Shown here piece by piece: positions 1 through 52,463 of a DNA stretch of 64,000 nt. The stretch is taken from assembly GCA_921293015.1 (NCBI GenBank), contig OV121081.1, positions 63,443,022 through 63,507,021 on the forward strand. Direction: 5' to 3'. The stretch is from Phorcus lineatus (lineage: Eukaryota > Mollusca > Gastropoda > Trochida > Trochidae). Numbering within the stretch: position 1 is the first letter of the stretch; each line of letters opens with the position of its first letter. The notes under the pieces are model-generated. The model worked only from the letters and a program-made list of their open reading frames with translations. It made no database searches and was not told the DNA's origin. Position numbers and translations under genes: made by a program.

Positions 1-707
1 TCGCTGCAAGCCACAGCTACAGGATCTTCCAAAAAGTTGTCTCCCTTATGAGGCTGGTGCCGCCATATGAGGTCACCTTTCTGCGAGATACACGTTAGAG
101 AATGCATTGAGTGGTCAGACACCAGGATGTCTCCTAGTGGAGTCGAACACAGGAACGTTGGTGTCATGAACATCCTGTTGTCGTATTTGTCGTGCACGAA
201 GGATTTGAGAACATGGCCACTCATATCTATAATGTCTACCGACCCCGGCTCCTCCCTGTGGGTCCCCACAACCAAGCAGTGTCGGACCCTCGGTAAGGAT
301 GTAACTCCAATATACATCTTTCTTGTCTTGATGACGTCCGTTACATTCATATCTCTAACTGACAATATTTTAATTTCTCTCGAAAGTGGAAGTGTAACAG
401 CAAGGGAATCATTGTCAACTTTGCACAATCTGTAAGGCAAGCCTTCAACTGGTACCTCGCGATTTCTGGAGGGGGAGAAAAATTTAATGACTTTGTTAGT
501 GTAGTCCGCTACGACGAGTGTGTTCCCATTATGCCGTGTAATGATGGCGATATCCGTTGGGAAGGGAGACCACTCCTTGAGGCTGATTCTAGACGAGGAC
601 ACTCTAAGCAATGACCTGCGGGAAGATGAAGAACTCGACTCTGTGGAACGACGTCTGTAGGACAACGTGGTAACCTCGGAGCGCCTCTTAACCGCCTTGT
701 TTCCCAT
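1..707 (-). CDS. NHL-repeat (TRIM-type beta-propeller) protein, 3' truncated by window edge
   Basis: The minus strand is open from a Met codon at 707-705 to position 1, about 235 residues. It starts MGNKAVKRRS, has a basic Ser-rich stretch (SSSSSSRRSLLRVSSSS, about residues 20-40), then blade-like NHL repeats: LVVADYTNKVIKFF, an unnamed blade around MYIGVTSLPRVRHCLVVG, and GDILVSDHSMHSLTCISQKG. The alternation of L-V-V-A-D or I-L-V-S-D strands with a hydrophobic strand about ten residues later is typical of NHL propellers in TRIM2/3/71-like proteins, which are numerous in molluscs and bind RNA or protein partners. No RING or B-box is visible here; those could lie in an upstream exon if the true start is not the Met at 707. 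An in-frame stop lies just upstream (about 765), and an AG at about 735 could also serve as an acceptor. The gene continues beyond the left edge. Confidence 0.7.
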   Translation of the reverse strand, partial: MGNKAVKRRSEVTTLSYRRRSTESSSSSSRRSLLRVSSSRISLKEWSPFPTDIAIITRHNGNTLVVADYTNKVIKFFSPSRNREVPVEGLPYRLCKVDNDSLAVTLPLSREIKILSVRDMNVTDVIKTRKMYIGVTSLPRVRHCLVVGTHREEPGSVDIIDMSGHVLKSFVHDKYDNRMFMTPTFLCSTPLGDILVSDHSMHSLTCISQKGDLIWRHQPHKGDNFLEDPVAVACS

Positions 708-738
708 GTCACAACAACCGAACTTCCTTCCACTAACC

Positions 739-746
739 CTTATATA
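739..746 (-). promoter_or_regulatory. possible TATA box for the NHL-repeat gene
   Basis: TATATAAG on the minus strand begins about 38 bases upstream of the Met codon at 707. If used, it would give a very short 5' leader and make 707 the true start. It is only a motif match in AT-rich DNA. Confidence 0.25.
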
Positions 747-750
747 CAGG

Positions 751-6398: not shown

Positions 6399-24807
<18,409 letters not shown>

Positions 24808-31197: not shown

Positions 31198-31446
31198 ATG
31201 GCACACTCTCTGCTTCCAGTCCTCGCAATTCTTATCATGTTGACATGTTACCACACCCGAGCGTATGTCCTACTGACGAAAGAAGTAGGAACGTACAAAC
31301 AATGTTACAACTACTGCGCCGCCGTCAGTGTCTGTCAGGTTGTTGAGTTTGTCCCAGAATCTCGGATTTGTAACCTCCTCACCCGCGCGGCCAGCACACG
31401 GAGAGATGGGTTTCGTTACGGTGATTTCTCCATACTGGCTAATCAG
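31198..31446 (+). CDS. exon 1: signal peptide and PAN/apple-like segment
   Basis: ATG at 31,198 (upstream in-frame TTG is not used) starts MAHSLLPVLAILIMLTCYHT, with cleavage likely after TRA. The mature part TYKQCYNYCAAVSVCQVVEF followed by RICNLLT has the C-x3-C-x5-C spacing and the later C-x-L of PAN/apple domains. It ends in phase 0 at LANQ with donor GTTTGT, a weak site. Confidence 0.78.
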
Positions 31447-34400
31447 GTTTGTCATATCATATCGAATTTGTTAACCTTTTTTATTAGCACAATTGTAATC
31501 TTTGAAACCATCAAAACCGTTTTCATATCGCCATCATTTCATATCTTTTTAAACAATAAGTGGTTAAGTATAAAAACTGACTATTTTATAAAAGAAACAA
31601 TTTTCTGAGTGATGTCACTTTAAAGCGATAGATGTTTCGTTTCTTATTTATATGCAGTTTATACTTGCAAACAACAGGCGTATTAAGTTTATCAACAGAA
31701 ATGTTATGTTTCTTGCCAAGGTTATATCTCAGAATTATGTACAAAGCGTGATCCCCAACGCACCGTAGTGACAACAAAACAACCTTAACTGAAAAGGCAA
31801 CAAAAATATTTGGCAAATATCATACGAATAATATGAATCTAATGTACAATCCGGCTATATCATCGTGTGTGTATGTGAGAATCTCTTACGATTTCTTGAT
31901 ATCTATCGCGCCCAAAAGATAACTAATTTAAACAAAACAAACAATAGCTAGTCCTTTCAATACTTCAGTTCATCTGTGAATATTTGAGTAAATGTACAGT
32001 ATATAAAAGTAAATATACCATTACGTGTGAACAAAATACATAATAACCTGAACGTATATATATATATATATATATCTTTAAATGTGAATAAACATGTAAC
32101 GGGATGTACAGCATACAACCATAAAACTAAACGTCTCTTGTCTTCCTCGTGCAGGTGCCTCATGATATTTGTCGAGCAAGACCATGCCAAATATGGGAAG
32201 TATGTGTGATGACGTCATCAGGAACCGGACATGTCTGTTTGGAAAGAGGTAACTCATTTTCCTCGCGTGCAAGCAGTTTTAACATTTCTTCTCATACCCT
32301 TTGCTTACACTTTGTAATATCTGCAACATGGCAATTTTAAGAAAGTTTGCAAAATTAGAAATAAAACGAGGGTTTATTCCAACAAATAAAGATGTCCCAC
32401 TGGAGAAAGTTTAGGGAAAAAAGTTCATTTGTTATCATTAAAGATTTAGATCAACAGTGTTTTACGCGCATGTCATGCTGTTATAGCATAAGATAGCGCT
32501 ATCGATCTAAATTTATTCAGATTGGAGAAACCTTAGAATGAAATCAGGAATTAGATAATGAAGTACGTTCCGCTAAGACTTCTTTGTCCATTGCAACTAT
32601 TGAAGAAAGTGACTAGTTCCTCACCGTTATCAAGACTCGTTCATCTAAAGTATCCTGATATATGATACATAAAAAATAAATTGAGAAAAACGTTTATAAA
32701 AAGGCTTAAAAACAACTACTACTTACATCGACGACATCATTATCTACCTGTGTGACTGATTGACGTAATTAATGCCGCAAGAAAATACATTTTGATGCAT
32801 GCATAATACTGATATACAGTTGTATATGTATAATTTTAAAATTAGGATATTTGAATCAAAATGAAACACTTTCTAGAAATGACACTTGAAATGACAGAAC
32901 TAACCATTAATCTGTTATATCCATCAGAAGTAGCTCAGTCATAAATTCAAGTCTTTATTGCTTGTTAGCATAGGATTTTATGACTAAGTATTAAATAAAT
33001 TAAGAAAATAAAACATAATTAGTTTTTTGACATGTTGATTTCGCACAACTGAGAAAATCAAAATACCCAAATAGACTCAATATTGGATATCCCTGAAAAT
33101 CTCTTACTATTTAGAAACGACTTTTGAAGTTCAACTGTTACAGTGGACGGCAGAGAAGCGGTCGCAGTCCTTTTAACTAAAAATGAAATGGATAAATTTG
33201 GAAACTTTTTCCACCGGAAGGCCAGGAAAAGCATAGAAGTCATGACCTTAATACAAGTGCTTCGTCTTCACGCGTTGTCACGCAGAAACCACGTGACAAT
33301 ACGTAATCAGTATTACTACAAACTACTTTCATACATCAGCAATGTTTTAAAGAATTACCGATTCTACATTCTTTTATTTTGACACTTGTTTGCACGGAGT
33401 GAAGTATGTCCCACTTTCCCAGGTGTTTCGGGAAAATATCACAAAGACTTTGTCCTCGAGGCCATGTTTCGCTAGCGCCTCGGGTTTATCCCTCCGCAAA
33501 CCGGGAACTCTTCTAGTAAGTATTACTTATCAACTTAGTAGCTTCGTAGTTCTCAGTAACGAAAATGGGGCAGCTTTGTTTTCGAACGGTTCATTTTCAA
33601 AAATGGGTTTAAACGGACACTGCGACCAAGGTATGTTGTAACGAGGCTAATTTACATAATACAACTTGTACAGATTGTTAGTCTCGTTGAAACCAGATCG
33701 AACTTGTCACTCGTACCTCGCTGTGTTTCTCATAATAGTATTGCTCCAAAATGGTACTTCAAGGTAACCTTGGCATTCCAGCCAATCGGCAACGAGGCTA
33801 AAGATACAGTGTCGTACGGAATATAGCTTCTCGTTTAGAAGCCGTCCTCATAGTCTGTTAAACAGGCTCCATAAATAAACATCGAAAATAAATATAATAT
33901 TGTTTTTTATGTGATTTTCCTAGAATATATTTTAAGAAATAGCACGTCAACACAGATTTTAAAAAACAAGTAACGTGCACTTGACGTCGAACACATTTCA
34001 TCAAGATCAACGTGCCCTCTATCTAAACTGTTTACTTATCATTCAGTCAGTGCTTTATAAACATATTAAAAACATATGCACCTGCAAGTATAAGCATCTT
34101 ATCACCTCGTGTACATGTGAGTTTTCAGCTTAAAAGTGCATCGATTGTCTGTAAATATATGGCCTTTTAGATTTACGTATCTCATCAATCAATAAGCACT
34201 TTAGAAAGTATGAACACGGGATTCACTTAACTTCTTTCATCTACTCTTATAGCCTACAAGACTACCATCAATAATTGAAGCACGAAGTGGTGATGTTATA
34301 ATAAGCTGATGTCTAGTGTAGTTTTTCTTTATGTTTGTTTGTTTGACCCTCCTCCGTTTCTTTAGCACTTCAGCAAATTATAACATTATGATAAATTAAA

Positions 34401-37400
34401 CGTTTATTGAAAACACAATTGTTACGACATTTACGGTTCACTGTCCCACTTATATACTACAATTAGTAACCGATGTTAACTGAAACGTCCGAATAAAAAT
34501 AGATCTAATGAAAAGAGATATAAAGATGGTTTTACTGATGTTTTCTCCAAGGCATAATTAAGGGAGAAGTTTGAAAATACTTATCAATAATTCAGATAAG
34601 TATTCTCTCTGAACTCGTACAACAGTGTGTACGTAGTCAAGCGCTATGCACCGTACTTAATGTGAATAATTTAGAACTTGCCTTGTGCCCGTCAAAAAGC
34701 AAATGACTGATTAATTACTCACGACTTTCTTTTATTGCAAGATTTTTCAAACAGTGAGGCGATTTAAAAGGGAAACTTTATGTTTTAAATGAGAGGTAAT
34801 TAAGCTTCGATAAATGCCAAATCGGAAAACTATCTGACTTGCAAACTTTAGAATTGGAATGGATGTTACCTACGAAATATTTCTGTGCCTTTTGACTCTG
34901 CACTCCATGGGCGTCCATGTTTACCAGGTTTTATCTGCTTTGAAAAAACTAAACGTCTGACGTTATTGATATTTTCGGAATATAAGCTCTCACTTTTAAA
35001 CATTAATTTTCAAAATGGATTACCGCATTTGTCTGCACCGGTTTTGGGATATATCAGTTGGTGTATCTAGTCGAGATCGGTGTGAAGTGTTAAACGTTTT
35101 TTACACATGATATAAGGTTTTAGTTTACGGGGTCTGTAAAGCTTGATGGGAATATGTCATGGCATGTCCGGCCGTCCGTAAACTGTTAGGCTAACTATTT
35201 TATCTTCTCCAGAACCATTGACTCTGAATCTTGAAATATTGTGTATATACTCTTTGACTAATGAGGTTTCTAATTTATAGATTTGACCCCTAATAAGGGC
35301 CACAGGGAAGACAACCTAAATTCAATGTTCACCTTCTTCTCCAGAAGCGAAAGGTCTCGAAACCTGAAACAGATTCCTTACTGATGACGATTATGATTTA
35401 TAGATTTAGTGAACCTGCTAAATTTTTACCACATCGTTAAACCATTTTTCATCTTCGCCGGTTTCTGAAGAAAATATGTAGAAATTTAATTTTTATGTAC
35501 ATACTAATAGGGATTATAAGATATAGATTGGATATCTTTATGTTCCCTCACTTAAGCCACAGGTGTCATGCCCTTATAACTGTCTTTTTCTCTAATAATC
35601 AAATCTTACAAAGTTAGAATGTTGTGTGCATCATAGGGATAAAATTTGTAGCCTTAGGAGCTACAGAGTCCATGGCTCTATTTTCATACCTCTCGTTGCA
35701 TATTTTGTAATACAAATATATCAAGATTGAATTCTTTACAACCATCTATGATATAAACAAATTGTGCATTCATTTGTATGTAACTAACACGTTTCTTCTA
35801 AATAGCAGAATAAATACCAATGTTTATAAAACAATATTTTGTTTTTCAAAAGAACGATTGAGGCAAAAGAGGAAAATATTTGTCTAGTGATAAGTGGCAA
35901 GACATTTCATGGAATTTGAAACAAAGAACTTGCTCAAAGTAAATAATCCGTCAAAAAGAAATCGATTGCAATTTTTTATATGGTTAAATAATACATTTTA
36001 TTCACATTAAAGTTCAGACACGATGCTTTCTGAGAGAATAAAGAGTTTTTAATTCATCCGTCTATCTAATACTAATTGTATTTTCGTGAATCCTTAAGAA
36101 GAAATTATCACTTGTTTTGTAGCGAGGAAGCAACTAATTTCTGATATTGCATATATTATTGGTAGATTAAACATTCCTTCACTAATTCTTGAAACAAATG
36201 ATGCGTATATAATGCTCATTTCTTTATAATCTATCTATTAACCTTTATGGTAGCCATAGAATTCATTTGATAGATATGAACTATTCAAGTTATGGACACA
36301 ATTTAAAAAGCTCGAATGAATCAATGCAACGTTGGCCGATCATACATGTCGTCGAATTAGATATGCAAATGTGAAAACCCTCGTTGAATAACAATAATAA
36401 ATAAAGGGAACATTACGTACATTTTCGCGCTCAAATTGTCTGTTTCAGAACAAACGAGGAAACGTGCTCTCCCTTAAGCATTCTGTCCATGTATCGTAAA
36501 ACTTACACACTTTAAGAAAGGTTATAAATAAAAATTATGCCACACTCATGGCCTAGTGAAACCTAGCCAACATTTTCATAATCTTAATTCTTATAGCAAC
36601 ATAAATTAGAATCAGTTATGTTCATGTATGAAAACATTGGAACAATTGTTTGCTGCCAGCCATCGACTGCGGTTCTCCATCAAGTCTTTCCCACATGGCT
36701 GGTTCATCGCCCAGCACAGGTTTTGGAGCCACGGCAGACTACGGGTGTAATGTAGGATACACAGGATCTGGGAGTGGAACGAGCACCTGTCAAGCGGACG
36801 GCACCTGGAGTACACCTGCTCTTATTTGTACAGGTGAACATATACCTTTGGCATAACATATTGAAACACCAAATTCTCTCTTTGTACTGTAAGCCATCTA
36901 AAGACATTAGGGGTATCCAGTTCACGGGCCCCGCTAACAGAGTCCCCTATGTATAGACTATTGACAGGGTACTTCACCCGCCATCTTCGAACTCTAGCGT
37001 GTAAAATGCTCTTTAAACGCAAATAAAAACTAAAAGTATATCACGAAATGATCGGACATATATACTTTGATACTCCGCCGCTAATCTTACCTTAATTTTT
37101 TTTTTTAATAATGCCTATTTCTGACTTAATTTTCGCGAAGCGAGCCTGGTTACATTTACCCCACCCGGAAGTTGTCAATGGCGGTCGACCAGTTATTGTT
37201 TATGACGAGTTATTGTAAAATTCGTTTTAAAATTAATGTCTTTAAAAAAATATTACCACTGAGTTAAGTTGACTTCTGACATTGTTGTTATCTCTCACGT
37301 GTTAAAAATGTCATGCGAACAAATTTAGAATTTCCCCCGCTTAATCAAGTGTTTATGGCATTCTACTAATCAACCAATGAGGTTCAAGAAGCGTTTTGGC

Positions 37401-40400
37401 TGCGGCCATGTCGGCAGCCATTGTTAACTTCCGGGTTAGGTAAATGTGACCTGACCGCTTCGCGAAAGAAAGATTAAAAGCAGGAATAAAACGATAAGTA
37501 TGAGGGAAAGGTTAGCGGCGGAGTATCTCTGGGAATGTGTTCTATCACTACATAATGCAATTTGAGTCGACAATAGCGTAAAATTAGATTTTTTGGATCG
37601 AAGATGGCGGGTGAAGTACCCTGTCAATAGTCTATACATAGGGGACTCTGTTAGGGGGGCCCGTGATCCAGTTATAACCAGAACTCTTCTGACAAACGAA
37701 TTACCAAGAATTACGTAGCGGAGCCGTTTTTGGGTAATCATTTGAGGTAATAAGGGTTGCACCAAATACTGACTTTCTTGCTTGTTTCTATGTCTTCAGT
37801 TATCAGTCGGTTTCAATAGAGGATGACATCTACAGTTTCTAATCACACATTGCTGTTGCAAGAAGGTTTTCTAGAATTGAAGCTTTGAGATTTTTCAATG
37901 GTTACGTCAACGACTACGTATCAATTGAATCGGTATTTTATCAAGATTTAAGATTTCGTTGGATTTCATGTCTTCGGACATTGTTCAACCCGAGAGAAGC
38001 CCTTTATAATGCCATGATGCTCGAATGTCAATATTGTACATCGAGACATTCGTTAAAAGGCAATTGTTTAATTACGTTTGTCAAGGTAAATACATTAAGA
38101 GTAAAGAAAAGAGAAAATATCATATCTACAAAACTTATGATATCATTATTGATCATTCAGGACATCCTTGCTTTTATTTTTGTTTTATTTTTTTGCAAAT
38201 AAAGGCGGCGTAAAGCGTGCTGTAGTTGTTAACTACTGGAAAACACATCCATGTAACATGATTTTTTTAATCACAAAATTTCGGACGTCTCTCGTGAATG
38301 AGAAATATTATTTCCAGTTGTTGACTGCGGCTCTCCATCAAGTCTTTCCAACATGACTGGTTCAACGCCCAGCACAGTTTATGGAGCCACGGCCAACTAC
38401 GGGTGTAATGTAGGATACACAGGTTCTGGGAGTGGAACGAGCACCTGTCAAGAAGATGGCACCTGGAGTACACCTGCTCTCACCTGTACAGGTTGGTCAA
38501 CCTAAACGTTAGTTAGTGAAATAATTTGATGATCTATTTTCCATGAATGTCATATGGTACAAATGCATACAAAATGATGTTGCTTTTGTGATACTGTTTA
38601 CAGGAAAGGGGCAGTTACATAACAATCTTAAATTACTTTCCTACCCTGTTGATAACAATTGATACTTAAAATCTTGAATCCTTTTAATTGATAGCAGTAT
38701 GGCATTGCAAGCAAAATACACATCGGGATCTTGATACATAAGGATTATCTATCAGATATCTCCGGTGACTATAAGCCCCTAATAGTGGTCTCAGAGGTCA
38801 TGACCACAGTGCAACAATGAAATCATCTAATGTTTATTTCTCTGAAGAGTATGCTAACAAAGTTGATAATCAAGCCCCTTGGGGTCAAAAGACACATCGC
38901 TTTAAGGATCCAAACCAAGTACCCAAATGTAAACAAAGGTAAACAGGTGCACATTTTAACTTTCCTTTTTTGAACAAGAAAACAACCAACATTCTTATAA
39001 AAGCTAGGTACTGTACATCGCCACGTTCAACAATTGATTAGCAACAATGACCATATATTAGGTTTGCCTGTCTCTGGAATGGTAATGGCATATGTCTGTC
39101 ATGATACTAGGAACCTTTTCATAAATAGGAAGTAACCATACCTGTACCAGGAAACTTTCCAATGTTTTAAAGCAACCAGCATTATTACTTATATGAAAAT
39201 AAAAAGTTAACCCACGAAACAACTGATCATTGCCAGCCATAGACTGTGGTGCTCCGACGAGTCATCCCAATATGACTGGTTCATCGCCCAGCACAGTTTA
39301 TGGAGCCACGGCCAACTACGGATGTAATGTAGGATACACAGGTTCTGGGAGTGGAATGAGCACCTGTCAAGAAGATGGCACCTGGAGTACACCTGCTCTC
39401 ACCTGTACAGGTTGGTCAACCTAAACGTTAGTTAGTGAAATAATTTGATGATCTATTTTGCATGAATGTCATATGGTACAAGTGCATACAAAATGATGTT
39501 GCTTTTGTGATACTGTCTCTGATTATAAGGTGTACAGGAAAAGGGCAGTTACATAACAATCTTAAATTACTTTCTTACTCTGTTGATAACAATTGATACT
39601 TAAAATCTTGAATCCTTTTAATTGATAGCAGTATGGCATTGCAAGCAAAATACACATCAGCATATTTTCCCTGCTTGTTGTAAATACTGTATCATATTTC
39701 CCCATAGCCATAAGAGCAGACACTTGGTGCCTGGAGAATTTCAACGCTTTATAAATCCACTCCTTATTATTATTGTTCATTATTTTCTTGATCCATAAGG
39801 ATTATCTATCAGATATCTCCGGTGACTATAAGCCCCTAATAGTGGTCTCAGAGGTCATGACCACAGTGCAACAATGAAATCATCTAATGTTTATTTCTCT
39901 GAAGAGTATGCTAACAAAGTTCCTAATAAAGACCCTTTGGATCAAAAGACACATTGAAGGAAACTTTCCGCTGTTTTAAAGTAATCAGCATAAATAACTA
40001 TATAAAAATGAAAAGTTTACCCATGAAACAATTGATCATTGCCAGCCATAGACTGTGGTGCTCCGACGAGTCATCCCAATATGACTGGTTCAACGCCCAG
40101 CACAGTTTATGGAGCCACGGCCAACTACGGGTGTAATGTAGGATACACAGGTTCTGGGAGTGGAACGAGCACCTGTCAAGAAGATGGCACCTGGAGTACA
40201 CCTGCTCTCACCTGTACAGGTTGGTCAACCTAAACGTTAGTTAGAGAAATAATTTGATGATCTATTTTCCATGAATGTCATATGGTACAAATGCATACAA
40301 AATGATGTTGCTTTTGTGATACTGTATCTGAATATAAGGTTTACAGGAAAGGGGCAGTTACATAACAATCTTAAATTACTTTCCTACCCTGTTGATAACA

Positions 40401-43400
40401 ATTGATACTTAAAATCTTGAATCCTTTTAATTGATAGCAGTATGGCATTGCAAGCAAAATACACATCGGGATCTTGATACACAAGGATTATCTATCAGAT
40501 ATCTCCGGTGACTATAAGCCCCTAATAGTGGTCTCAGAGGTCATGACCACAGTGCAACAATGAAATCATTTAATGTTTATTTCTCTGAAGACCATGCTAC
40601 CAAAGTTGATAATCAAGCCCCTTGGGGTCAAAAGACACATCGCTTTAAGGATCCAAACCAAGTACCCAAATGTAAACAAAGGTAAACAGGTGCACATTTT
40701 AACTTTCCTTTTTTGAACAAGAAAACAACCAACATTCTTATAAAAGCTAGGTACAGTACATCGCCACGTTCAACAATTGATTAGCAACAATGACCATATA
40801 TTAGGTATGCCTGTCTCTGGAATGGTAATGGCATATGTCTGTCATGATACTAGGAACCTTTTCATAAATAGGAAGTAACCATACCTGTACAAGGAAACTT
40901 TCCAATGTTTTAAAGCAACCAGCATTATTACTTATATGAAAATAAAAAGTTAACCCACGAAACAATTGATCATTGCCAGCCATAGACTGTGGTGCTCCGA
41001 CGAGTCATCCCAATATGACTGGTTCATCGCCCAGCACAGTTTATGGAGCCACGGCCAACTACGGATGTAATGTAGGATACACAGGTTCTGGGGATGGAAC
41101 GAGCACCTGTCAAGAAGACGGCACCTGGAGTACACCTGCTCTCACCTGCACAGGTGGATCTTTGATATGATAATCCAGTTTAATACCGCCATTGTAAACA
41201 GTCGTCAATTTATCCTAAAACACAATGACATTACAAGATATATCAACAATGTTACATTTATATACTACGTAGAAATATTATAGAGTTTGAATTTTGTACT
41301 AATGAATTTACATATGAGTAAATAATGACATGTTTCAAAGTCGCTGACTGCGGTATCCCAGTTGACACGTCGACGCATGTTGTGGTAAGCTACAGGACTA
41401 CTACAGAGGGGAACACGGCCACATACGCCTGTGGACTCAACCTGCAGGAAGTGTCAGGCGACCCTACCTCCACCTGTTCTGCCGGGACCTGGTCAACACC
41501 TACTCTCACCTGCACAGGTAGATATCGCTTGTCATCTTCACTTTGTTATCATAAACATGTGTGCATTACGTGTAGATTAAAACTGACCTGCAATCCCACT
41601 CTATTCCTTGAAGCTGAAAAAGGGAATTGCCAACGGAAAAAGTTGGAGGGCATTTTGAATTTATTTGAATTTTTAATGATACAACTATTGAATTCACTTA
41701 CTCTTGTAAACAAATAGATGGTCCTATCAATCAAAATACTTTCAAAACGCCAAAGACAACTAACGTTGTTAATACAGACGGGGGTGTATATACACCCTAT
41801 ACACCCTAGCTCTTGGTGTTTCCATTCTACATGGAATCCCGGATTTACAACGCCTGCAAGATACGATTCCTGTATCTACGATAGATTTGAAGTATTTGTC
41901 CCTTGATTAACTAGAAAGTTGCACATTGTCTCACCAGAGGCTTCATACCTAGTTTGCTTGACCACCTTGACAAACTGCAGAAGGTGCAACTCGACAATCA
42001 CCTAAAACCCCTATCCTAGAAAGATGTCCACTGGCAGCAGAGCCAGGATTCATTTTAAATTATGTTTAATTACTAAATCACTACATAAACATTCGCCAAA
42101 TACATATTTGATACCAATAAACATTCCTGCATGGACACTATAATCACAACACAGTCAGCTTTGGTCAGAGATCGTGCACATAATTTGTGTAATTTCTTCA
42201 CCTAAATGATTAATTTATTCCATGATTATTCTACCTGTAAATGTCCTAACCATAACCCGCTGTCAGGAGAGGATGATCCCCAGTGTGTTTGGGAATGGAG
42301 CATTGGAAAACATTGATTCAGATTAGCAAATGGCAGGTCCAATTATACTGATGCAAAAGCCTTTAAAATGGCAAAATTTGAGGCAACCATTATGCTTGGA
42401 AATACTGCGAAATAAAAGGGTACAAATAGGATAGGATTTACATGACGGCAAATGAGAAGATGAAGGCCAACAAAAGAACAAAAGATCTACATGCTATCCT
42501 CTATTTGGAAAAGGTTATTGTTAACGCAGGAAATTTTTTTATATTAATTTAATTACAATTTTATGTTTAAAGTTATTTTTTTGCCAAAAAGTTTTCATTT
42601 AATATTGCTAAGTACAAAAGTGTTAAAAAACTGTTATAATTTTAATGTTAAACTTTATTTTATAAGAGGTTCAGAAAGTCTAGGCAGGTTATAAATGTTA
42701 TTTGTTTTGCCTTAAGTATTATCATGATTGTTAGTCATAACTGGATTACTCCCCTTGAAACTTATGATGATGATGATGATGATGATCAGAGCACATGTTT
42801 GTCAGTGACACCATGTTTGATTGGCAGCTAAATTAAGGAAAGATAGGCAAGAACACAAATGTAAGTAACATGGTTTGCTATAATAAGATAGTTTAATGCA
42901 TAATACATGAATACTGTTTAAATGTTTTGCTAATTATATAGTTTATGAATTTAATTTGTTATTGATAATTTTGAGAATTTTTATGTTACTGTTAGGAATA
43001 GCCATACTAAGGAAGTGTTTATTTCTGCTTTAGTTTTCTGAACCTTACAAGTTCATGAAGATAAGCAATAATGAACTGTACAACGCATAAGAACTGTGAA
43101 CTTGAAACAGAATAAAACTTTGTGCAAGTTTATGGATGTTTGTGTCTTGCATCCACAGTTATATAATTATTTGTCCATCGCATCACATAATAGAATAGTG
43201 AGGCAAATATGCAGTTATATATATATATACAGTTCCGTTTTAAACAACAGTCAGTCACCGATTTATCCCTTGGAGAAAGGCGAAAGGGATCTAGTTCTAG
43301 GATAAAGGTCACAATTGATAGCGTCCAGCACCGCTCAAGATGTTTGATAGTTTTGCAAATTAATATGCATCACATGCATCAGTAAATTGTTTTTAAACTC

Positions 43401-46400
43401 TCAAGGATTGCCAGGACAAGATTTATTAAAGTATTGTCAGAAGCGTATTTCACTACCTCTATCTCTGTCACATAGGGATATCACACTACTTGACTCGGCT
43501 TTATCACATTCTATACTTATCGAAAACTATATGTGTTTTATTTAGTTCACGTGCAGTCATGAGGAATTGTATGCTGTTTTGACTCTTTTGCCCTTCAATT
43601 TGAGATTTGCATAAACAATCGTTTTTCGTATTAAAGATTGTCAATTATTTCGGGATACCCACATGGTCACGTGGTTCTAAATTTAATACAGATGTGTTCA
43701 TTGGTTATACGATATTGCCAAAATACAAAGAGGCTAAGTATTATTGATTTAATGTTCCATTGAAAATTCCAAGTGTAATATAGGGAGAAATTTCAGTCGT
43801 GAAGATGTTTCATATGATGGCTACAAGTCTCAATCAACAAATATTGCACATACCGAAAATAGGTGAATATTAAGACCACCTTGGAATCCAAAGTAGGCAC
43901 AAATTGAGAATGTTCGCATTTTTTTTACATAGTTGAAGATTTTACGAACATAATGTTATATGCAGGCGCTTCTAACCTGGTGACGACGGTTGAGTATGGC
44001 GGGAGTTCTGTTGCATGGGTGTGTGAAGAGCGGGTGTCCAGCCCGTCGGGTACAGCAGATGATAGCAGGGCCTACATAGAGTGCCAAGGAGACGATGTCA
44101 TGACAGGGTGTACCAGTCTACTGGATGTGTGTGCTTGATTAGTGTAGTAACATTAGAAAATAGTTATGAGCTGTCTAGCTGAATTGGTTAAATGATATTA
44201 AAAATCTTTTGACTGACAATGAAAGTAGCTAGTCAGCATCGTTGAATTGTTGATGTATGCTTCTCATATGCCATACTAGCATTATCCATCAAATGGTCTA
44301 CAGAATACTGAAAAAACTCTGTTCATTTAAGAGACAAACAGGTACTAAATGCTAATTTACGCCCATGGTTATCCCCTTCCCCTTTTCAATAGGTGACCAA
44401 TTTTCTAAAATGACTCGAGTCCTAGGTGAAACTTGAACTTGACTTGAACCTACATTTTGGGTGTTAGCTTTAATTTAGGGCAAGAGTCTTTACTTTGTAC
44501 TTCAAGCCGGGTATCTACGTTATTTTTAGATTGCTTCTCAACTGCAATATGGTTTGAGGTCCTCATTTTGTTGTGGATGTAAAACTGTAAGACTTCTTGA
44601 CTAGGGTTTAAGTATATTGAATCTTTTGTTTTCTCCAAGGAAAACGAGCCAGACGCGGATGGACAATATATTAACGCGGATAGCGGCAGGGCCAGATGTG
44701 TGGCGGTCAACAGCTACGGGACTTCAGGACGTGAGTGCTCCACAATTAGACAGTGAATAATACAACAAATACCTCCACAACTTCTACTAATACAATTACT
44801 ACTAATACCAATACAACTACGATTATTACTACTACGACTTCATTGTGCTTTTACCAAACAGCTGGTGCCTGGTTGAAGTGCATAAAACACATACAAAATA
44901 ATAACAAAAGCTTATGTGAGGAAAATATATCATAGTGTAGAGGATGAAAAGAATAAAACGTTTTCAAGTGCACTTTACATTTAACACAATGCTGTTTAAA
45001 TACACAATGCAGAAATTGAGTTTGAGCTAGTGAGTGATAAAAGTACAGGAGTGTTATTGGATCACATGGAAAATACAAGTTTCTCTGTAACATATTTGAA
45101 GCACTTCACATCATTCATATCCGCAACCTAATCATAATAAAGAGGTGAATACATTAAGAGTAAAGAAAATAGGACATCAAAAACATCTCTGTCAACCTTC
45201 AGGCAATTACTGCCAGCCCCACTTCTGAAATGAAATAAAGTTGATCACTACGTAGAATTTGAATTAGAGTTTGTGTTACACCTAATATTAGTTAATCGTA
45301 ATGTTTTCTTTGCCCCTTATTTGTTTGTGCAACTTCTGTATATGAGGGGAGGTCAATAAGAAGTGATAAGTCATAGAAGTCAGTGTTGATACACCCCTAA
45401 AGAAATCATCGTTGATATCGTTATTAAGATAATTTACAGACATAAGCAACCCTTCCCGATCATTTACTTGAGATTTACAGCCTGTTGGACACAGATACCC
45501 TCCTGTTATCATAGAAAGTTGTAAAACTGAGCATGGGCGGTTATCAAGTTCCTCATTAAAGAAGGTGTGAATGCGACCGAAATATATTAATGTATGACCT
45601 ATCAGTGTATGGCAATGAAGCCACTAGTTATTCTGCAAAATGGTAGCTGAGTTAAAGCGGAGCCGGAGCTCTTTGGGTGATGACACACGTCAGATAAGTC
45701 TGTTGAAGCCATTACAGATGGTTGCAAGGATCCAGGGCTTAATCATGTCCGATCGTAGAATGAAGGTGAATGAGATATCTTCAGAGCGTGGCATTTCTCA
45801 TGGAAGTGTTTGCACTAAAATTCATGAGCCCTTGCCAAGTTTAAAATCTCTGCTGGATTGGTGTCACAAAACTTGAATGCAAAAGATCGATACTAGAGAG
45901 TTGAATACAGTCGTAAATTCCTATACAACCTCTATCTTAATACAAAGGTTTCTCGGGCTTCCGGCAGTTTCCCCTACCGGCATAATATTGCAACTTAAAC
46001 TACCTGGCAATATTTCATCCTATGAAAATAACGAATGCATGAATAACATATTTGTTGTCACACAGGCCTTTACAATGATACAGTCACAAAATAAGGCGTT
46101 CATGTTCTTGTAAAGACGACTCAAAGTGCAAGGTGCATATATTCGAATCAAGTTAAGATTTTGGTAATGATAACTTTTGAAACGGCGTCGCTGATTGCAC
46201 AACTAACTTTGTAAATGCAAGATTTGAAAGTGCGCGTTTTGGGGTAATGCTTTCTGTACTAACAATTTTTAAGTTCAAATAAGCACAAATATTATCGTTA
46301 CTAAAATTACTTCTTTAAAACGGCTAACCAAATGGTCCAGTGGTTGTGTCTGTGCACATGTAACTCATGAGGATAACATCCTGAGTTCATACCCCATTAA

Positions 46401-49400
46401 TCCCTGACAAAAACTTTGTAATTCAATTTGCATGAAATAACTTCCATATGTAAATTAGCCTTATTCTAACTGGTTCTAATTGTATATCATATGACATCTC
46501 AAAAAGCACATGGTTTAAAAAGCATGCACAGCATATCAGATCAGATCTGGCCACCATGCTGATAACACGTTTCACCTCACTGCCTGCAAATTCCCATATT
46601 ATGGAACAAATGTAAGTTCAGTTTTCTACATAAATATTAACTTTAGTGTACCCTAACCTTTTTAATGTATCTGCAAGAATAGTATAGAAGGTTGTATCAG
46701 AATGCAGTAACTTATTGCATGTTGTTCCAAACGATAATTATTTCTATCTTTTTACCTGATAGTAATAGTAAAAATAATTGAATATGTATTAATGCTAACG
46801 TTTACTATGTGCATTAATGGTCAAATGTTATGGAATGTCTTTTTTTACATTGTTGTTTTTTAAACTGCATCTAACGCATCTCTTGAACTACAACATCTCT
46901 TGAACTACCGCATCTGTTGAACTACCGCATCTGTTGAACTACCGCATCTACTTTATCTACCGTATTTACTTCATCTGTCGCACCTGCCTTATCTACTATC
47001 TGTGGCACCCACAGAATGATGAACTGATGAAATGTAATAAACTGTATTAACTTTGATGCAAATTTCGGATTTTTTGTTCTTGCATCTACAAACTTTGATT
47101 GCATCCAACCAGCGTTCTAAATTTCTAGACCAAGAAACCTTCGTGCTAAGACAGAGATTGTATAGTAATTTATGACGGAGCTCCCTCTGTTGAGAGAGAA
47201 TGGAGCCTATTATGCTGCCTCGTTATTGGTATTAAACAGAGCTACACCAAAAAAATGTGGCTTTGAACAACTAAAACATCCCCTATACAGTCCAGATCTG
47301 GCCCAAAGCGACTTCGATCTGGCCCAAAGCGACTTCTATCTGTTTAGTTATTTCAAGCGTGGTATAAGATTTGGCGATGGTAATGAACTCAAGGCAGCTA
47401 TTTAGGAGTGGCGGAGGGCAAGAAGAAGAAGACTTGGAGCGCAAGTGTATAGACATTTTCAAGGACAAATGGACTAAATGTATCGAGATCAAGGAAGATT
47501 ATGTTGAAAAATAAAATCATGATTACAACCATTAGCTTCTGTTTTATATGCTCTTCTATGAATTGTTTCAGAAGTTGTAAATCCATAATATCATTGTCTT
47601 CCTCTTCCATGAACTTATTGACTTCCCCTCGTATGTTCACAAATGAAGAAGTGAGCCTGAACCAACCGTTGTTCAGTAGACAATTGTCCTAATATGTTTC
47701 TTCAACTGTTGTATCTTTCAACAGCTGTCCGAGCCACAGGCAGTTGTTGGTCTGTAGATATTTGTCATTCCTTGTTTGTACAACTGTTGACTCTATCCTG
47801 CTTACAGCTGTGCGAGCCCGAGCTAGGTGTTGTTCTCTGGTGGGGCTGAAGTGTGAGTACCTACATGCCGGATATACGTCTCACGACAACGATGTACGGC
47901 AATACACCGCCTGCAAACCTGGATTTTGGCCTACAGGTAGTTGCTTATCAAAGATTGTATTTGTCAGTAGTCATAGTTTGATGAGATGTAAATAATGATA
48001 CTTTTACTTGCAAAAGATGTGTTTATCTTATGAACATTATTTCAATATCAATCAACCGATGAAATGTTTCATAATGATATTTTCATAAACAAACTAATAT
48101 GATTTCCATGATTTAAAGAACATGGATGTTTCTTATCATTTCCTGTTACCATCGTAAATCCGTGCATAAGCTAGCTATTATTAATTTCATACTGCTATTA
48201 TTCCTAGCAGGGAATCTTTTTCTTTAAGATACCTGTTTAAAATTTACAACAAACAACAAAAACCCGTAATTATGGGAATTGTTTTATAACAGATATTGTA
48301 AAAGGAATTCCTGCCGAGAGGTATAACTTTGAATAAATATTCTTGCATATATCGAAGAACTAAACAAGGAGTTAATCATTTTTTGTATCACTAGTAAAAG
48401 ACTCACTTGGCAATGTTTTCAAAGCTAGGACTATTTCGGCAAGGACGTTGACCCCAGTTAGGTTTAGACTCGTCAATGATCAAAAGCAAGCTTATAATAC
48501 AAGAGAGGCAATTTCGCATTGACGTATGTATCATGTGTCATCAATAAGTACATTACATCTAGCTGATGTGTGTACAGGCTGTACAGTGCTGAACTGGTTC
48601 GGACAGTCGGACGGAGTCTTCTTGACAGACAATGGATGTACTGTACAGAACAGTGGACCAGATGCGGGTCAGTATTTTGAAATTCTTACATGTGTTTGCA
48701 CCGAGGTATGTCCTTGAGGTTCGTGTTATTCTTTTGCATCTTGGTCATTAAGTTCTTCAATAACAATCTCACTTTCAATGTCGATATCAATGCTTACCCA
48801 AAGTATCCGAAAAGCAATTGTCTAGATTTGAAGCCGGAGTTCATTATGTTGTGGGCTTCGAACAAAGCTGAACTGATTTCATCATCCTGATAAATCAGCG
48901 TATATGAATCCGCTCACGCTCTTTCCTAATACCCTGATCTCTCTCAAGCCAAAACCCTCGTATCGCACGAGCCAATGTCGCACTCAGCAACAGCGGCACA
49001 GCCCGGATAGTAAAATCCGTCGGGCTGAAGCTAGTACCTTCAAGCTCCTTAATTAACGACATTTTATTGGCTGAAAAAATAACATAGCCACGAATATCAA
49101 GCCGCTAGTCATACTTAGGATGTAGCCGAAAGAGATCAGGGCATAAGGAAGGAACGTGAGCGGATTAATGTACTTTGATTTAGCAGGATGTGGTGTCATG
49201 GGTTTTGAAAAAACACTTCGACTTCGACGATGGCTCAATGTAAACGAAATTTGATTATTATGATGTATTTTTTTTGCAGATATCTTTGACGATAACGTTT
49301 CGAAAATAATTGTCAATTTTGATTTACATTGTAGTGGGATTACATTTTGTAGATTTATACAGATTTTATTATAATTAAAGCTTGAGGGCGAAACTCTCAA

Positions 49401-51423
49401 ATCCTTTTTTCGTCGTCTTTTTCTTAACAAAGAGGCATAAAACACGTAAATGGTGTGTAGAGAGTATTTAGTAAATGAGTATTTTCATGAAACAATCATT
49501 GAACCCATAACACAGAAAGAAGGACCCGGGTCGACACCCTTTTTTTCTCCTTCGAAAGAACTTTAACACAGAAATAAATTAAAACGCCCTTTAACCTATT
49601 TTGAAAGCTTAATTGTTATCTACATGCCCAAGCGAACACAGATATGCCGAGTATCAAAGTTTTCATAATGGTCCTGAAAATTACAGATTTTCTATAAATA
49701 ACTCGAGGACTGATTGGCTGACAGAACTATTTTTATTCATTCGTGTAGTGAGTCTATCATTCACGTGTGACTTCAAAACAAACATTGTTTCATTTCGTAT
49801 GGAATAATATGAAACGTAAAATGTTTTATATGTAGTTTGTTTTACTATTTAGTTCATGTTGGATTGTCAAGCTTAATATATGATCAACAATCATGTAAAG
49901 AATTGCTGAGACTACATTTAACTGCGCCATGGCATATAGTCGTATATAGATCGAGTTCAGATAAACCTTACGAATTATTGTGAGAAATTCCTTGCCAAAA
50001 CTCGGAATTTATAACGATAATCCACGAGGGACAGATAAACCGTAAGTCCTCCTGGTTTATCCAAAGGTAATCTTTTTTTCAATTAATGGAATAATTCCAT
50101 CCTTACCACTACTCAATTTCAACCTTTGTCAGTGAAACTTAGTGATGTACCTTCCAATGACAGTTCAACCAAGTTTTAACAAAAATATTCTTTATACGAT
50201 CATTGAACTAAGGGCCTCCTCAGTATGTTTGACGATTGAAGTGCCCTCAACTTGCAATAATCTCTCAGCATTTGCAATCAAGGGTGATAAATGAAAAGCT
50301 GACCCACAAAGAGAAGAAGATAGACTTGTCAAACCCCAATATAAAAACATCCATTATATTAAGCTTGTTTCTCCTCTTGTCCTTTAAGAGAAGATGCGAC
50401 CAGTCCATGGTGAATGAATGAATGAATGAATGAATGAATGAATGAAACCCATGTAAACGCAAATTGAAGGCATATTACTCCATTGGGCAAATAATTGTCA
50501 TGTAACGCAGAATTATGTAAATAAGGAAAATTTTCTGGATAAACTGAGCCTATGTTCCAATACGGCGTGAATTTCACTATAAAGAAGTTGTTGTCCAGAA
50601 AGTCTTGTCTTATTTAAGGAATGGATCAATGATCAATGTTAACACTTTGCACTATCAGGGACAACAGGCAATACGATATGCTGTTCGGCACCGAACATGG
50701 AGTGCATGAAGGTGGTATCTCAACCCAGTGGGTACCTTAATGGCGACTCTACCAGTATCACCTGCCCAGCCGGCTACACCATGACGGGTTGCATGGCATA
50801 CACACCTTTTAGTGGGATACAGGGAGCCAAGATTGAAGGTTTGAGAACACAGCTGAATATCTTGTCAGGTTGTAAACACAAGGGGGAGGTAGACCTGAGA
50901 GTGTTTGGAATACAAACTAAACTATTTCAGTTTATCAATCTTAACATAACATATCACAAAGAGCAAATATGACGGCTCCAGTTAAAAGTTTGTCTAATCT
51001 TGATATTTTTTCTTCAGGCAAATCACGGTTTTCAAAGTATGAATTTATAAAATTCGAATGCTTTTTGGCTGTTGCCGCTATGAAATCTTTGGCCTAGTGC
51101 GAACTGGCTATGTGGAATTAAAGGATGTAACTGTTCCTTTAACCTTTACTTTATTAAACGTGGCGATACAATTGTTTATCCTTATGAATTTGTTAAATAT
51201 ATTGTAATAAATAATTAGTCTTTTCATTTCACTCACCAAATTTATGAACTGGAGTGTCAGTGTCCATTGTCAGCAAGCATCAATCCATCCTTGTAGACGT
51301 TTTCATTTTTGTCATCTTTCAGTGGTCAACGGTGAAGACACATGCTTTGCAGTAAACGGGAAATTGAAGTCTTCTTCTCACAGACCTCCTGTTGCCTATG
51401 CCGGATGTTGCATCATACACTGA
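31198..51423 (+). CDS. secreted PAN / six-sushi / PCSK9-like V-domain protein (whole gene, 14 exons)
   Basis: Fourteen exons (listed separately) splice to 2,142 bases, 713 residues plus stop, without a frame break. Order: signal peptide and PAN/apple-like segment, a four-cysteine segment, six CCP (sushi) domains, then six exons coding a C-terminal region with 18 cysteines in three modules. Each module has the pattern GY/GF-x-TGC, then C-x-V or a similar single Cys, then CC, and two of them end in a further Cys (KC, EC). This is the pattern of the V (Cys/His-rich) domain of PCSK9. There is no subtilisin catalytic domain and no membrane span, so it is predicted to be secreted. In PCSK9 the V domain binds partners; here a binding role in recognition is inference. 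CCP2-CCP5 are recent duplicates. Confidence 0.85.
32155..32248 (+). CDS. exon 2: four-cysteine segment
   Basis: Acceptor TCTTCCTCGTGCAG, phase 0 in and phase 1 out, donor GTAACT. Reads VPHDICRARPCQIWEVCVMT, then GHVCLERG. The C-x4-C-x5-C spacing resembles a short EGF-like or linker module seen between PAN and sushi domains; I cannot name it with certainty. Confidence 0.75.
33675..33805 (+). mobile_element. MITE-like fragment, same family as 4,262 and 6,147
   Basis: It shares TCTCGTTGAAACCAGATCGA, ACTTGTCACTCGTACCTCGC and CCAGCCAATCGGCAACGAGG with the copies at 4.26 and 6.15 kb. Only one terminal repeat is evident. Confidence 0.55.
35110..35520. repeat. dispersed repeat, related to 56,155-56,500
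   Basis: It shares a series of phrases in the same order with the copy at 56.2 kb: CGTCCG near the start, TCTTCTCCAGAAC(C/T), TTGACTC, TTGACTA, GGGCCACAG, TCTTCTCCAGAAG or similar, TAGATTTGGTGA or similar. Noncoding and diverged; the family is probably abundant in the genome but I cannot name it. Confidence 0.5.
36660..36833 (+). CDS. CCP (sushi) domain 1 exon
   Basis: 174 bases, phase 1 to phase 1, acceptor TGCTGCCAG, donor GTGAAC. Begins AIDCGSPSSLSHMAGSSP, contains ADYGCNVGYTGSGSGTSTC and ends DGTWSTPALICTG. Four cysteines and the conserved Trp before the last one define a CCP module. Confidence 0.93.
36923..37665. mobile_element. 743-bp foldback DNA transposon (MITE) with 8-bp target duplication
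   Basis: The ends CACGGGCCCC(G/C)CTAACAGAG are inverted copies that stay almost identical for about 68 bases (two mismatches). The homology then continues with gaps for over 250 bases per arm (CGCGAAGCG, ACATTTACC, CCCGGAAGTT). The direct repeat ATCCAGTT flanks it exactly (36,915-36,922 and 37,666-37,673). An 8-bp duplication fits hAT or P-type elements. No transposase is present. It lies in the CCP1-CCP2 intron. Confidence 0.88.
38318..38491 (+). CDS. CCP (sushi) domain 2 exon
   Basis: 174 bases, phase 1 to phase 1, acceptor TATTTCCAG, donor GTTGGT. Begins VVDCGSPSSLSNMTGSTP, like CCP1 at its start but like CCP3-5 afterwards, including the N-glycosylation sequon NMT. It looks like a junction copy from the exon duplication. 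Confidence 0.93.
39237..39410 (+). CDS. CCP (sushi) domain 3 exon
   Basis: 174 bases, phase 1 to phase 1. Begins AIDCGAPTSHPNMTGSSP and ends STPALTCTG. It differs from CCP4 and CCP5 at only a few positions (GMSTC here, GTSTC there). Confidence 0.93.
40046..40219 (+). CDS. CCP (sushi) domain 4 exon
   Basis: 174 bases, phase 1 to phase 1, acceptor CATTGCCAG, donor GTTGGT. Nearly identical to CCP3 and CCP5 (NMTGSTP in place of NMTGSSP). Confidence 0.93.
40980..41153 (+). CDS. CCP (sushi) domain 5 exon
   Basis: 174 bases, phase 1 to phase 1, donor GTGGAT. As CCP3, with SGDGTSTC in place of SGSGMSTC. Its donor and following intron differ from the other copies, marking the right edge of the duplicated block. 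Confidence 0.93.
41341..41517 (+). CDS. CCP (sushi) domain 6 exon
   Basis: 177 bases, phase 1 to phase 1, acceptor TGTTTCAAAG (weak), donor GTAGAT. Begins VADCGIPVDTSTHVVVSYR, then TATYACGLNLQE and GTWSTPTLTCTG. It is diverged from CCP1-5, so it is an older module. Confidence 0.9.
41518..43965. other. intron between CCP6 and the V-domain exons, nothing recognised
   Basis: 2.4 kb of AT-rich DNA with short GAT and TA runs (42,764-42,787 and 43,215-43,232). No exon with correct phase or cysteine pattern, and no transposon end, was recognised. Confidence 0.5.
43966..44126 (+). CDS. V-domain exon 1 (PCSK9-like module 1, first part)
   Basis: Acceptor TATATGCAG, phase 1 in and phase 0 out at donor GTGTGT. 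Reads GASNLVTTVEYGGSSVAWVC, and later YIECQGDDVMTGCTSLLD. The phrase TGCTS matches the TGCS-type turn repeated in each PCSK9 V module. Reading through the donor would hit a stop nine bases later, so splicing is required. Confidence 0.8.
44640..44730 (+). CDS. V-domain exon 2 (module 1, second part)
   Basis: Acceptor TTTTCTCCAAG, phase 0 in and phase 1 out, donor GTGAGT. Reads ENEPDADGQYINADSGRARC, then VAVNSYGTSG. The C-V-A-x-N-x-x-G phrase is the expected single cysteine strand of a PCSK9-type module; the other two frames give no sensible continuation. Confidence 0.78.
44731..45340. other. intron, low-complexity AAC/ACT tract
   Basis: A Thr/Asn-coding low-complexity stretch at about 44,750-44,840 (ACTAATACAATTACTACTAA), otherwise nothing recognised up to the mariner end at 45,343. 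Confidence 0.5.
46325..46430 (+). mobile_element. tRNA-like SINE fragment nested in the mariner
   Basis: TGGTCCAGTGGTTGTG resembles a polymerase III A box, and GAGTTCATACCCC about 50 bases later is a degraded B box. Its limits are unclear and it may be a decayed SINE head. Confidence 0.4.
46862..46985. repeat. short tandem repeat, about 18-bp unit
   Basis: The unit CGCATCTGTTGAACTAC is repeated about five times with decay to the right (ATCTACTTTATCTACC). It lies inside the DNA inserted in the mariner. Confidence 0.75.
47808..47936 (+). CDS. V-domain exon 3 (end of module 1, start of module 2)
   Basis: Acceptor CTGCTTACAG, phase 1 to phase 1, donor GTAGTT. Reads PVRARARCCSLVGLKCEYLH, then YTACKPGFWPTG. 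The A-R-C-C-x(5)-K-C phrase closes module 1, and A-C-K-P-G-F-x-x-T-G-C (completed in the next exon) opens module 2, closely matching PCSK9 V-domain signatures. Confidence 0.85.
47937..48577. other. intron, nothing recognised
   Basis: AT-rich, no repeat or exon recognised. Confidence 0.5.
48578..48667 (+). CDS. V-domain exon 4 (module 2, middle)
   Basis: 90 bases, phase 1 to phase 1, acceptor GTGTGTACAG, donor GTCAGT. Reads GCTVLNWFGQSDGVFLTDNG then CTVQNSGPDAG. It supplies the TGC turn and the single mid-module cysteine. Confidence 0.82.
48883..49190. repeat. 308-bp imperfect inverted repeat element
   Basis: The left arm from CATCCTGATAAATCAG through AATCCGCTCACG to CCCTGATCTCTCTC is matched in reverse complement by the right arm (CATCCTGCTAAATCA, AATCCGCTCACG, CCCTGATCTCTTTC): about 63 bases at roughly 80% identity. 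The centre, about 180 bases, looks richer in GC than the surroundings. On the minus strand two frames overlap at ATGTCGTTAA, one ending in a hydrophobic stretch (LISFGYILSMTSGLIFVAML) and one beginning MSLIKELEGTSFSPTD. Origin unknown: foldback element or transferred fragment. Confidence 0.65.
49191..50658. other. intron remainder with a GAAT microsatellite
   Basis: (GAAT)n at 50,411-50,446. A 130-codon minus-strand frame (49,053-49,445) overlaps the inverted repeat and has no domain match apart from its hydrophobic end. Nothing else was recognised. Confidence 0.5.
50659..50838 (+). CDS. V-domain exon 5 (end of module 2, start of module 3)
   Basis: 180 bases, phase 1 to phase 1, acceptor GCACTATCAG, donor GTTTGA. 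Reads GTTGNTICCSAPNMECMKV, then STSITCPAGYTMTGCMAYTP and GIQGAKIEG. I-C-C-x(5)-E-C closes module 2; C-P-A-G-Y-T-M-T-G-C opens module 3. This is the strongest single match to the PCSK9 V domain (C-x-x-G-W/Y-x-x-T-G-C). Confidence 0.88.
51323..51423 (+). CDS. V-domain exon 6 (end of module 3, stop codon)
   Basis: Acceptor GTCATCTTTCAG, phase 1 in. Reads VVNGEDTCFAVNGKLKSSS, then PPVAYAGCCIIH and TGA at 51,421-51,423. D-T-C-x-A-x-N-G followed by A-x-A-G-C-C closes the third module, giving 18 cysteines for the domain. Confidence 0.87.
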
Positions 51424-51429
51424 AGTGGA

Positions 51430-52400
51430 ACAAGCATGACCACTGGAGACACGAAACACTGTTATAACTGGAGACACGAATTACTGTTATATTTACTGGA
51501 GAAACGAAACACTGTAATAACTGGAGACACGAAGTCTCTTATAATAACTGGAGTTACGAAATACTGTTATATTAACTGGAGACATAAAGTACTGATCTAT
51601 CTACTAGAGATATAAAATACTGTTGTATGAACGGGAGACATGAAATACTGTTATATTAACTGGATACATTAGATACTGTTATATTAACTGGAGATACGAA
51701 ATACTGATCTAATTGAAAAACAGGAAATCCTAGGCCTGTTTTATCAACTGGAGATACGAACTACTGTTATATTTAATTGATACATGGAATATTACTGTAT
51801 TATAGGAACTCCCAAAATACCGACTTATTTAAGAATATCAGAACTTTTAAAAGAAAATAATTTTGAAAAGGAACATTTCAAAGCAAACGAATTAACAATT
51901 ATATTAACTGGAGATACGAAACACTGTGATAACTGGAGACATGAAATACTGTTTCATTAACTGGAGACATGAAATAAAGTTATGTTAACAGGAGACATAA
52001 GTACTGATATATCTACCAGAGATATGAAATAATGTTATTTTAATTTGAGACATGAAATGCTGTTGTTAAAACTGGAGACATCAAATACTGTTATATTAAC
52101 TTGAGACATGAAATACTGTTATATTATTCAGAGATATGAAATACTGTTTATAAACTTGAGACATGAAATGCTCTTGTTAAAACTGGAGAAATCAACTACT
52201 GTTATATTAACTTGAGACATGACATACTGTTGTTTAAACTGGAGGCATGAAATACTGTAATATTACCTGGAGACATGAAATACTGTTATATTACCTGGAG
52301 ACATGAAATACTGTTATATTAACTGGAGACATGAAATACTGTTATATTAACTGGAGACATGAAATACTGTTATATTAACTGGAGACATGAAATACTGTTG
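51430..52400. repeat. degenerate 26-31-bp tandem repeat abutting the stop codon
   Basis: Units such as CTGGAGACATGAAATACTGT plus TATATTAA are repeated about 30 times, diverged on the left and nearly identical at 52,255-52,395, with an interruption at 51,780-51,900. It begins within about ten bases of the stop codon, so it is likely in the 3' UTR of the PAN-sushi gene. Confidence 0.88.
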
Positions 52401-52463
52401 TATTATCTTGGCCACATAGGGAAATATTGTATGTGCTAACCTCAGTCCTATGGAATATATTTG

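Follow-up and report, generated by a model that had tools for sequence, protein, structure and literature searches.

In PCSK9, a major drug target, the C-terminal V domain (the Cys/His-rich domain, CHRD; Pfam PF18459, PF18464 and PF18463) aids degradation of the low-density lipoprotein (LDL) receptor in a manner that is not settled. The domain consists of three six-cysteine modules, in each of which disulfides join cysteines 1-6, 2-5 and 3-4. Resistin and resistin-like beta are single small modules that form trimers, not three fused modules as in the domain described below. In the accessible part of a 2021 paper the V domain is called unique to PCSK9, perhaps within its protease family (PMC8553125), and HLA-C is proposed as a candidate for the sought 'protein X' in the available text of another (PMC9816786). 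A third paper (PMC6294395) places the PCSK9 V domain in one group with APC-beta, a pseudo-threefold double-layered beta-prism of the apicomplexan perforin-like protein 1 (TgPLP1, PvPLP1). In ribbon worms (nemerteans), the mucus proteome includes, as far as the available text goes, secreted proteins annotated 'PCSK9 superfamily' (PMC9132205), which may be protease-free V-domain proteins in another lophotrochozoan phylum, or PCSK9-like proteins of some other kind. Here we consider 64,000 nucleotides of the trochid gastropod Phorcus lineatus (GenBank assembly GCA_921293015.1, contig OV121081.1, positions 63,443,022 to 63,507,021, forward strand; hereafter the window), in which six exons that follow a run of sushi exons code for a complete three-module V domain. 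The protein predicted from them is, like the nemertean ones, secreted and lophotrochozoan, a likeness that on the nemertean side is one of annotation only. In the literature searched (partial coverage, mostly titles and abstracts) we found no account of a V domain outside PCSK9 with a non-protease partner. We give a probability of roughly 0.72 to the overall proposal, that the gene codes for a secreted PAN-like/sushi/V protein in which the V domain serves as a binding platform and was gained by phase-1 exon shuffling.

The six V exons lie where a first-pass annotation of the window had placed their starts (Table 1): each is directly preceded by AG, GT donors keep the frame after exons 1-5, and the sixth closes at a TGA (51421-51423). 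The donor of V exon 1 was taken, by inspection, as the site after 44126 because V exon 2 must stay in frame. Entered in phase 1, the spliced exons give 250 residues with 18 cysteines, spaced in each module as C-x19-C-x8-C-x18..24-C-x16..20-CC, and the claimed TGC turn and CC pair occur in all three modules. The likeness to the PCSK9 V domain had been noticed by eye and is upheld by profile and sequence searches. The spliced region scores 46.4 bits against PCSK9_C1 (cut-off 31.3) and 44.1 bits against PCSK9_C3 (cut-off 26.7), module 1 alone passes PCSK9_C1 at 36.6 bits, and all 17 matches at E <=1 in a library of solved-structure sequences are PCSK9 (best E 2.3e-9); NCBIfam profiles gave no match. 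Against a control profile built from five gastropod V domains (described below), with the window sequence left out, the window V domain scores 190.4 bits and the human V domain 98.7. Disulfide-rich domains can converge, and the identity to the human V domain is only 25%, but the idea that an unrelated domain has arrived at a similar spacing of its 18 cysteines is rejected by cysteine-fixed shuffles, which reach at most 24.7 bits (300 of 300; among full shuffles, of which 296 out of 300 were scored, the maximum is 7.5), and we regard it as scarcely credible. When the same profile was run in six frames over the open reading frames of at least 18 residues in the window, five of the six V exons passed the inclusion threshold, as did no other stretch; V exon 2, about 30 residues long, is not significant alone (E 0.38).

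The closest V domains found belong to gastropod glycosidases. A search with the full protein, seeded by words from the V region, passed one of 753 candidates at E 1e-3. This is P0001 of Patella caerulea, which carries CBM4_9, GH10 and V domains, and a search from its V domain brought 5 of 925 candidates past E 1 (query included), two from Patella, two from Haliotis and one from Babylonia. All five (P0001-P0005; Patella caerulea, Haliotis rubra, Haliotis asinina and Babylonia areolata) have the order CBM4_9-GH10-V. Like the window protein they are non-proteases with a C-terminal V domain of 18 cysteines, whereas their N-terminal parts are carbohydrate-binding and glycosidase domains and not PAN-like and sushi modules. 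Three carry names such as 'GH10 domain-containing' or 'exoglucanase XynX-like'. By pattern, both GH10 catalytic-glutamate motifs are present in four of the five; P0004 is without the acid/base motif, and its GH10 match spans only profile positions 182-294 of 311. Databases already carry Pfam V matches on gastropod GH10 proteins, which, as far as we have seen, are apparently undiscussed in the literature searched. The earlier suggestion that the fold is used apart from PCSK9 proteolysis is strengthened by these proteins. The window V domain alone as a protein query gave 0 of 144 candidates, and short-pattern scans checked by tblastn, a route by which distant relatives may escape, found none in bacterial and archaeal contigs (two scans, with 100 and 11 pattern matches) or in viral contigs (27 pattern matches).

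When the seven V domains (window, five gastropod and human) are aligned, each has 18 cysteines; 17 of the cysteine columns are filled in all seven and one in six, the exception being human Cys552, which is placed two columns off. The window domain is 31-38% identical to the gastropod ones. In a tree of the 21 modules, all first, all second and all third modules group (2 changes, the minimum), a grouping that 0 of 200 label shuffles reached; human module 2 sits on a long branch and is loosely placed. On sequence comparison, the window V domain is demonstrably homologous over its full extent, every one of the 18 cysteines included, to the V domains of PCSK9 and of the gastropod GH10 proteins. 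The simplest reading is a single origin of the tripled domain, before the mollusc proteins diverged from the vertebrate ones, after which it would have moved as a block. A V domain that existed before PCSK9, the separate origin raised in the first-pass annotation, is possible. More tentatively, and at somewhat less than even odds, the V domain may be an old bilaterian recognition module that was shuffled as a three-module unit into mollusc secreted glycosidases and complement-type proteins, with PCSK9 as one captor. If so, the V step in receptor degradation would be a re-used ancestral surface binding (to a glycan, a lipid or a cell-surface protein) that could be read in the mollusc proteins.

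A predicted structure of the V domain of one relative, overlaid on known structures, has the PCSK9 V fold. When the whole of P0001 was searched by fold, the best 50 of each list were GH10 xylanases, cellulases and Kemp eliminase designs (the last presumably built on GH10); these lists say nothing on the V part, and a V domain was therefore folded alone. A viral fold library gave 2 of 1048 matches at E <=0.001, both with TM-scores <=0.30, which we took as noise.

The complete gene model codes for 713 residues in two N-terminal exons, six sushi exons with phase-1 borders and the six V exons (Table 1). The sushi call is firm in Pfam (PF00084, 165.7 bits over six stretches of the full model; cut-off 20.7), and no Pfam model matched exon 2. 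That the protein lacks a subtilisin domain, as had been stated, agrees with both searches made for one: Pfam found none in the 713-residue model (E 1), and three simple subtilisin (S8) patterns had no match in the window reading frames of at least 18 residues. Sushi exon 6 leaves in phase 1 and V exon 1 enters in phase 1, and order and strand suit a single gene. The six V exons might instead form a separate gene, whose first exon would lie within the 2.4-kb intron or at some other place; the sushi gene would then end alone. In the interval scanned (41518-43950), one ATG open stretch has a phase-1 donor and a hydrophobic run (42222-42282), but the encoded peptide, judged by eye, makes a poor signal sequence, and 0-2 comparable candidates turned up in each of seven control blocks; as phases agree at the join and the window reading frames of at least 18 residues hold no further significant V stretch, we think a separate gene unlikely. 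The V exon 3/4 junction splits a Gly codon just 5' of the TGC cysteine of module 2, in phase 1; the human PCSK9 exon 10/11 border presumably falls at the same codon and phase, which we treat as a lead only.

Table 1. Exons of the predicted PAN-like/sushi/V gene (positions within the window). 'Profile' is the control profile built without the window sequence.
Feature	Position	Strand	Evidence
Exon 1 (83 codons, phase 0 out): ATG, hydrophobic start resembling a signal peptide, PAN-like module with four Cys	31198..31446	+	Splice sites; PAN_1 borderline
Exon 2 (phase 0 in/1 out): short segment with four Cys, likened to EGF only by eye	32155..32248	+	Splice sites
Sushi exon 1, phase 1-1	36660..36833	+	Splice sites, Pfam
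Sushi exon 2, phase 1-1	38318..38491	+	Splice sites, Pfam
Sushi exon 3, phase 1-1, inside duplicated block	39237..39410	+	Splice sites, Pfam, block likeness
Sushi exon 4, phase 1-1, inside duplicated block	40046..40219	+	Splice sites, Pfam, block likeness
Sushi exon 5, phase 1-1, inside duplicated block	40980..41153	+	Splice sites, Pfam, block likeness
Sushi exon 6, phase 1-1, diverged from the other five	41341..41517	+	Splice sites, Pfam
V exon 1: module 1, cysteines 1-3, phase 1 in/0 out	43966..44126	+	Profile E 4.2e-6
V exon 2: module 1, cysteine 4 (C-V-A-V-N)	44640..44730	+	Frame and alignment; alone not significant (E 0.38)
V exon 3: module 1 CC pair, module 2 cysteines 1-2	47808..47936	+	Profile E 2.2e-8
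V exon 4: module 2, cysteines 3-4 (G-C-T-V, C-T-V-Q-N)	48578..48667	+	Profile E 0.0012
V exon 5: module 2 CC pair, module 3 cysteines 1-3	50659..50838	+	Profile E 1.8e-17
V exon 6: module 3 cysteine 4 (C-F-A-V-N), CC pair, TGA stop	51323..51423	+	Profile E 1.4e-5

Sushi exons 3-5 lie in 300-nt blocks that are 91-94% alike, intron flanks included (38230-41191), and the intron block 38591-38890 is 98% like 40334-40633. Judged by this likeness the block is a recent tandem exon duplication, and the number of sushi repeats may therefore differ from allele to allele or from species to species. An open frame in the intron that separates V exon 2 from V exon 3 (45628-45876, plus strand) resembles by eye the N-terminus of a mariner-type transposase and has no Pfam match. 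A 28-nt tandem repeat array of about 35 copies (51442-52405) begins 19 bases past the V stop codon, downstream of which AATAAA occurs at 51973 and 52464.

Across the V domains the conserved positions are the cysteines, glycines, the turn before the third cysteine and the A-[YV]-A-x-C-C end, and these are the scaffold. For the ligand-facing side we checked six PCSK9 contact residues (for CAP1, annexin A2 and MHC-I) given in the available text of PMC9816786. Human Arg491, Glu567, Arg657 and Arg659 are replaced in the window by Asp, Trp, Val and Gly, and Gln554 by Lys, or by Pro when the cysteines are set in register; human Arg549 meets an Arg, but the alignment is two columns off there, and in cysteine register the residue is Tyr. 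With five of the six contacts changed, the window V domain likely binds a different ligand from PCSK9. The domain is also acidic, with 4 His against 14 in the human V domain. One could suppose that V works here as in PCSK9, so that a receptor, once captured, is coupled to CAP1- or MHC-I-like partners and degraded, the sushi and PAN-like modules doing the capture in place of subtilisin. The same domain in the same C-terminal position, and the Arg facing Arg549 in its misaligned stretch, would suit this, but with the other five contacts replaced and with MHC-I being a molecule of jawed vertebrates, such coupling seems quite improbable.

Two further proposals concern what the domain would bind. 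Extra modules on GH10-type enzymes often bind substrate, and the V domain might be a glycan-binding module common to these enzymes and the window protein: it is joined to CBM4_9 and GH10 in five of the five gastropod relatives found, and in all seven proteins 1-3 aromatics sit in the C3-C4 loops of both module 2 and module 3. However, the presence of putatively exposed aromatics in two modules out of three is not specific, and the human V domain is not known to be a lectin; we consider a common glycan-binding role doubtful, if the least so of the alternatives. The aromatic loop was tried as a hallmark of module 2 and dropped, since module 3 carries an equal count, which slightly lowered our estimate for glycan binding; the loops are a place to look, with no specific sign of function. 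APC-beta suggests, by analogy, a membrane-lipid binding module like that of perforin-like protein 1, which we rate as unlikely.

Taken as a whole, the protein of about 713 residues would be secreted, with a signal peptide, a PAN-like module, a short cysteine segment, six sushi (CCP) repeats and a complete three-module V domain with nine disulfides in the pattern of PCSK9. The sushi repeats may form a rod capped by a PAN-like head and, at the opposite end, by the V head, the latter a rigid platform whose loops would bind a partner on the surface of a cell, a microbe or the matrix. The most likely function, inferred from this architecture, is that of a soluble molecule for recognition or adhesion, and the V domain would have entered the gene as one unit through phase-1 exon shuffling. 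Candidate ligands suggested by analogy are glycans (from the GH10 partners), lipids (from APC-beta) and proteins (as for PCSK9); the earlier idea of pathogen recognition is plausible, with carbohydrate, lipid or receptor binding equally possible. This is a known domain in a new architecture, and V appears to be a mobile binding unit, not one confined to PCSK9. That a whole V domain is present both in GH10 enzymes and in a complement-type protein suggests a unit able to function with no protease attached, and these proteins are natural comparisons, in which residues common to all contexts would mark the scaffold and varying ones a candidate ligand surface. The origin of the PCSK9 architecture thereby becomes testable.

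Several results count against this proposal. The Pfam model of the second module, PCSK9_C2, did not match the spliced V region; in the full 713-residue model PCSK9_C1 and PCSK9_C3 both remain above cut-off, with PCSK9_C3 down to 32.0 bits, and modules 2 and 3 taken singly score 25.8 and 26.6 bits, just under the PCSK9_C3 cut-off. Branch support for the three module groups is modest (83/89, 78/60 and 80/30). The fold prediction and overlay, which had been put forward as a check on the window protein, hold for a relative's V domain, and the folded model is not that of the window protein. The sushi-V join, claimed in the first-pass annotation, fits in phase and order, and one mRNA is an unproven prediction from these. 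The PAN call is borderline: PAN_1 scores 19.1 bits on exon 1 alone and 15.8 in the full protein, under the cut-off of 21.4, and the four-cysteine spacing is PAN-like by eye. Finally, no relative with the PAN-sushi-V order was among the matches from the 753, 144 and 925 candidates of the word-limited search, an absence that means little because the first search missed P0002-P0005, four of the five relatives.

Elsewhere in the window, a long open frame on the minus strand (22257-23672) carries an IgGFc_binding domain (E 1.4e-41), and further downstream this strand has a frame that is EGF-like (16906-17247); together they are perhaps a neighbouring gene for a secreted or surface adhesion-type protein. 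Near the window edge, an open frame at 3-764 (minus strand) contains an NHL repeat (25.0 bits, cut-off 20).
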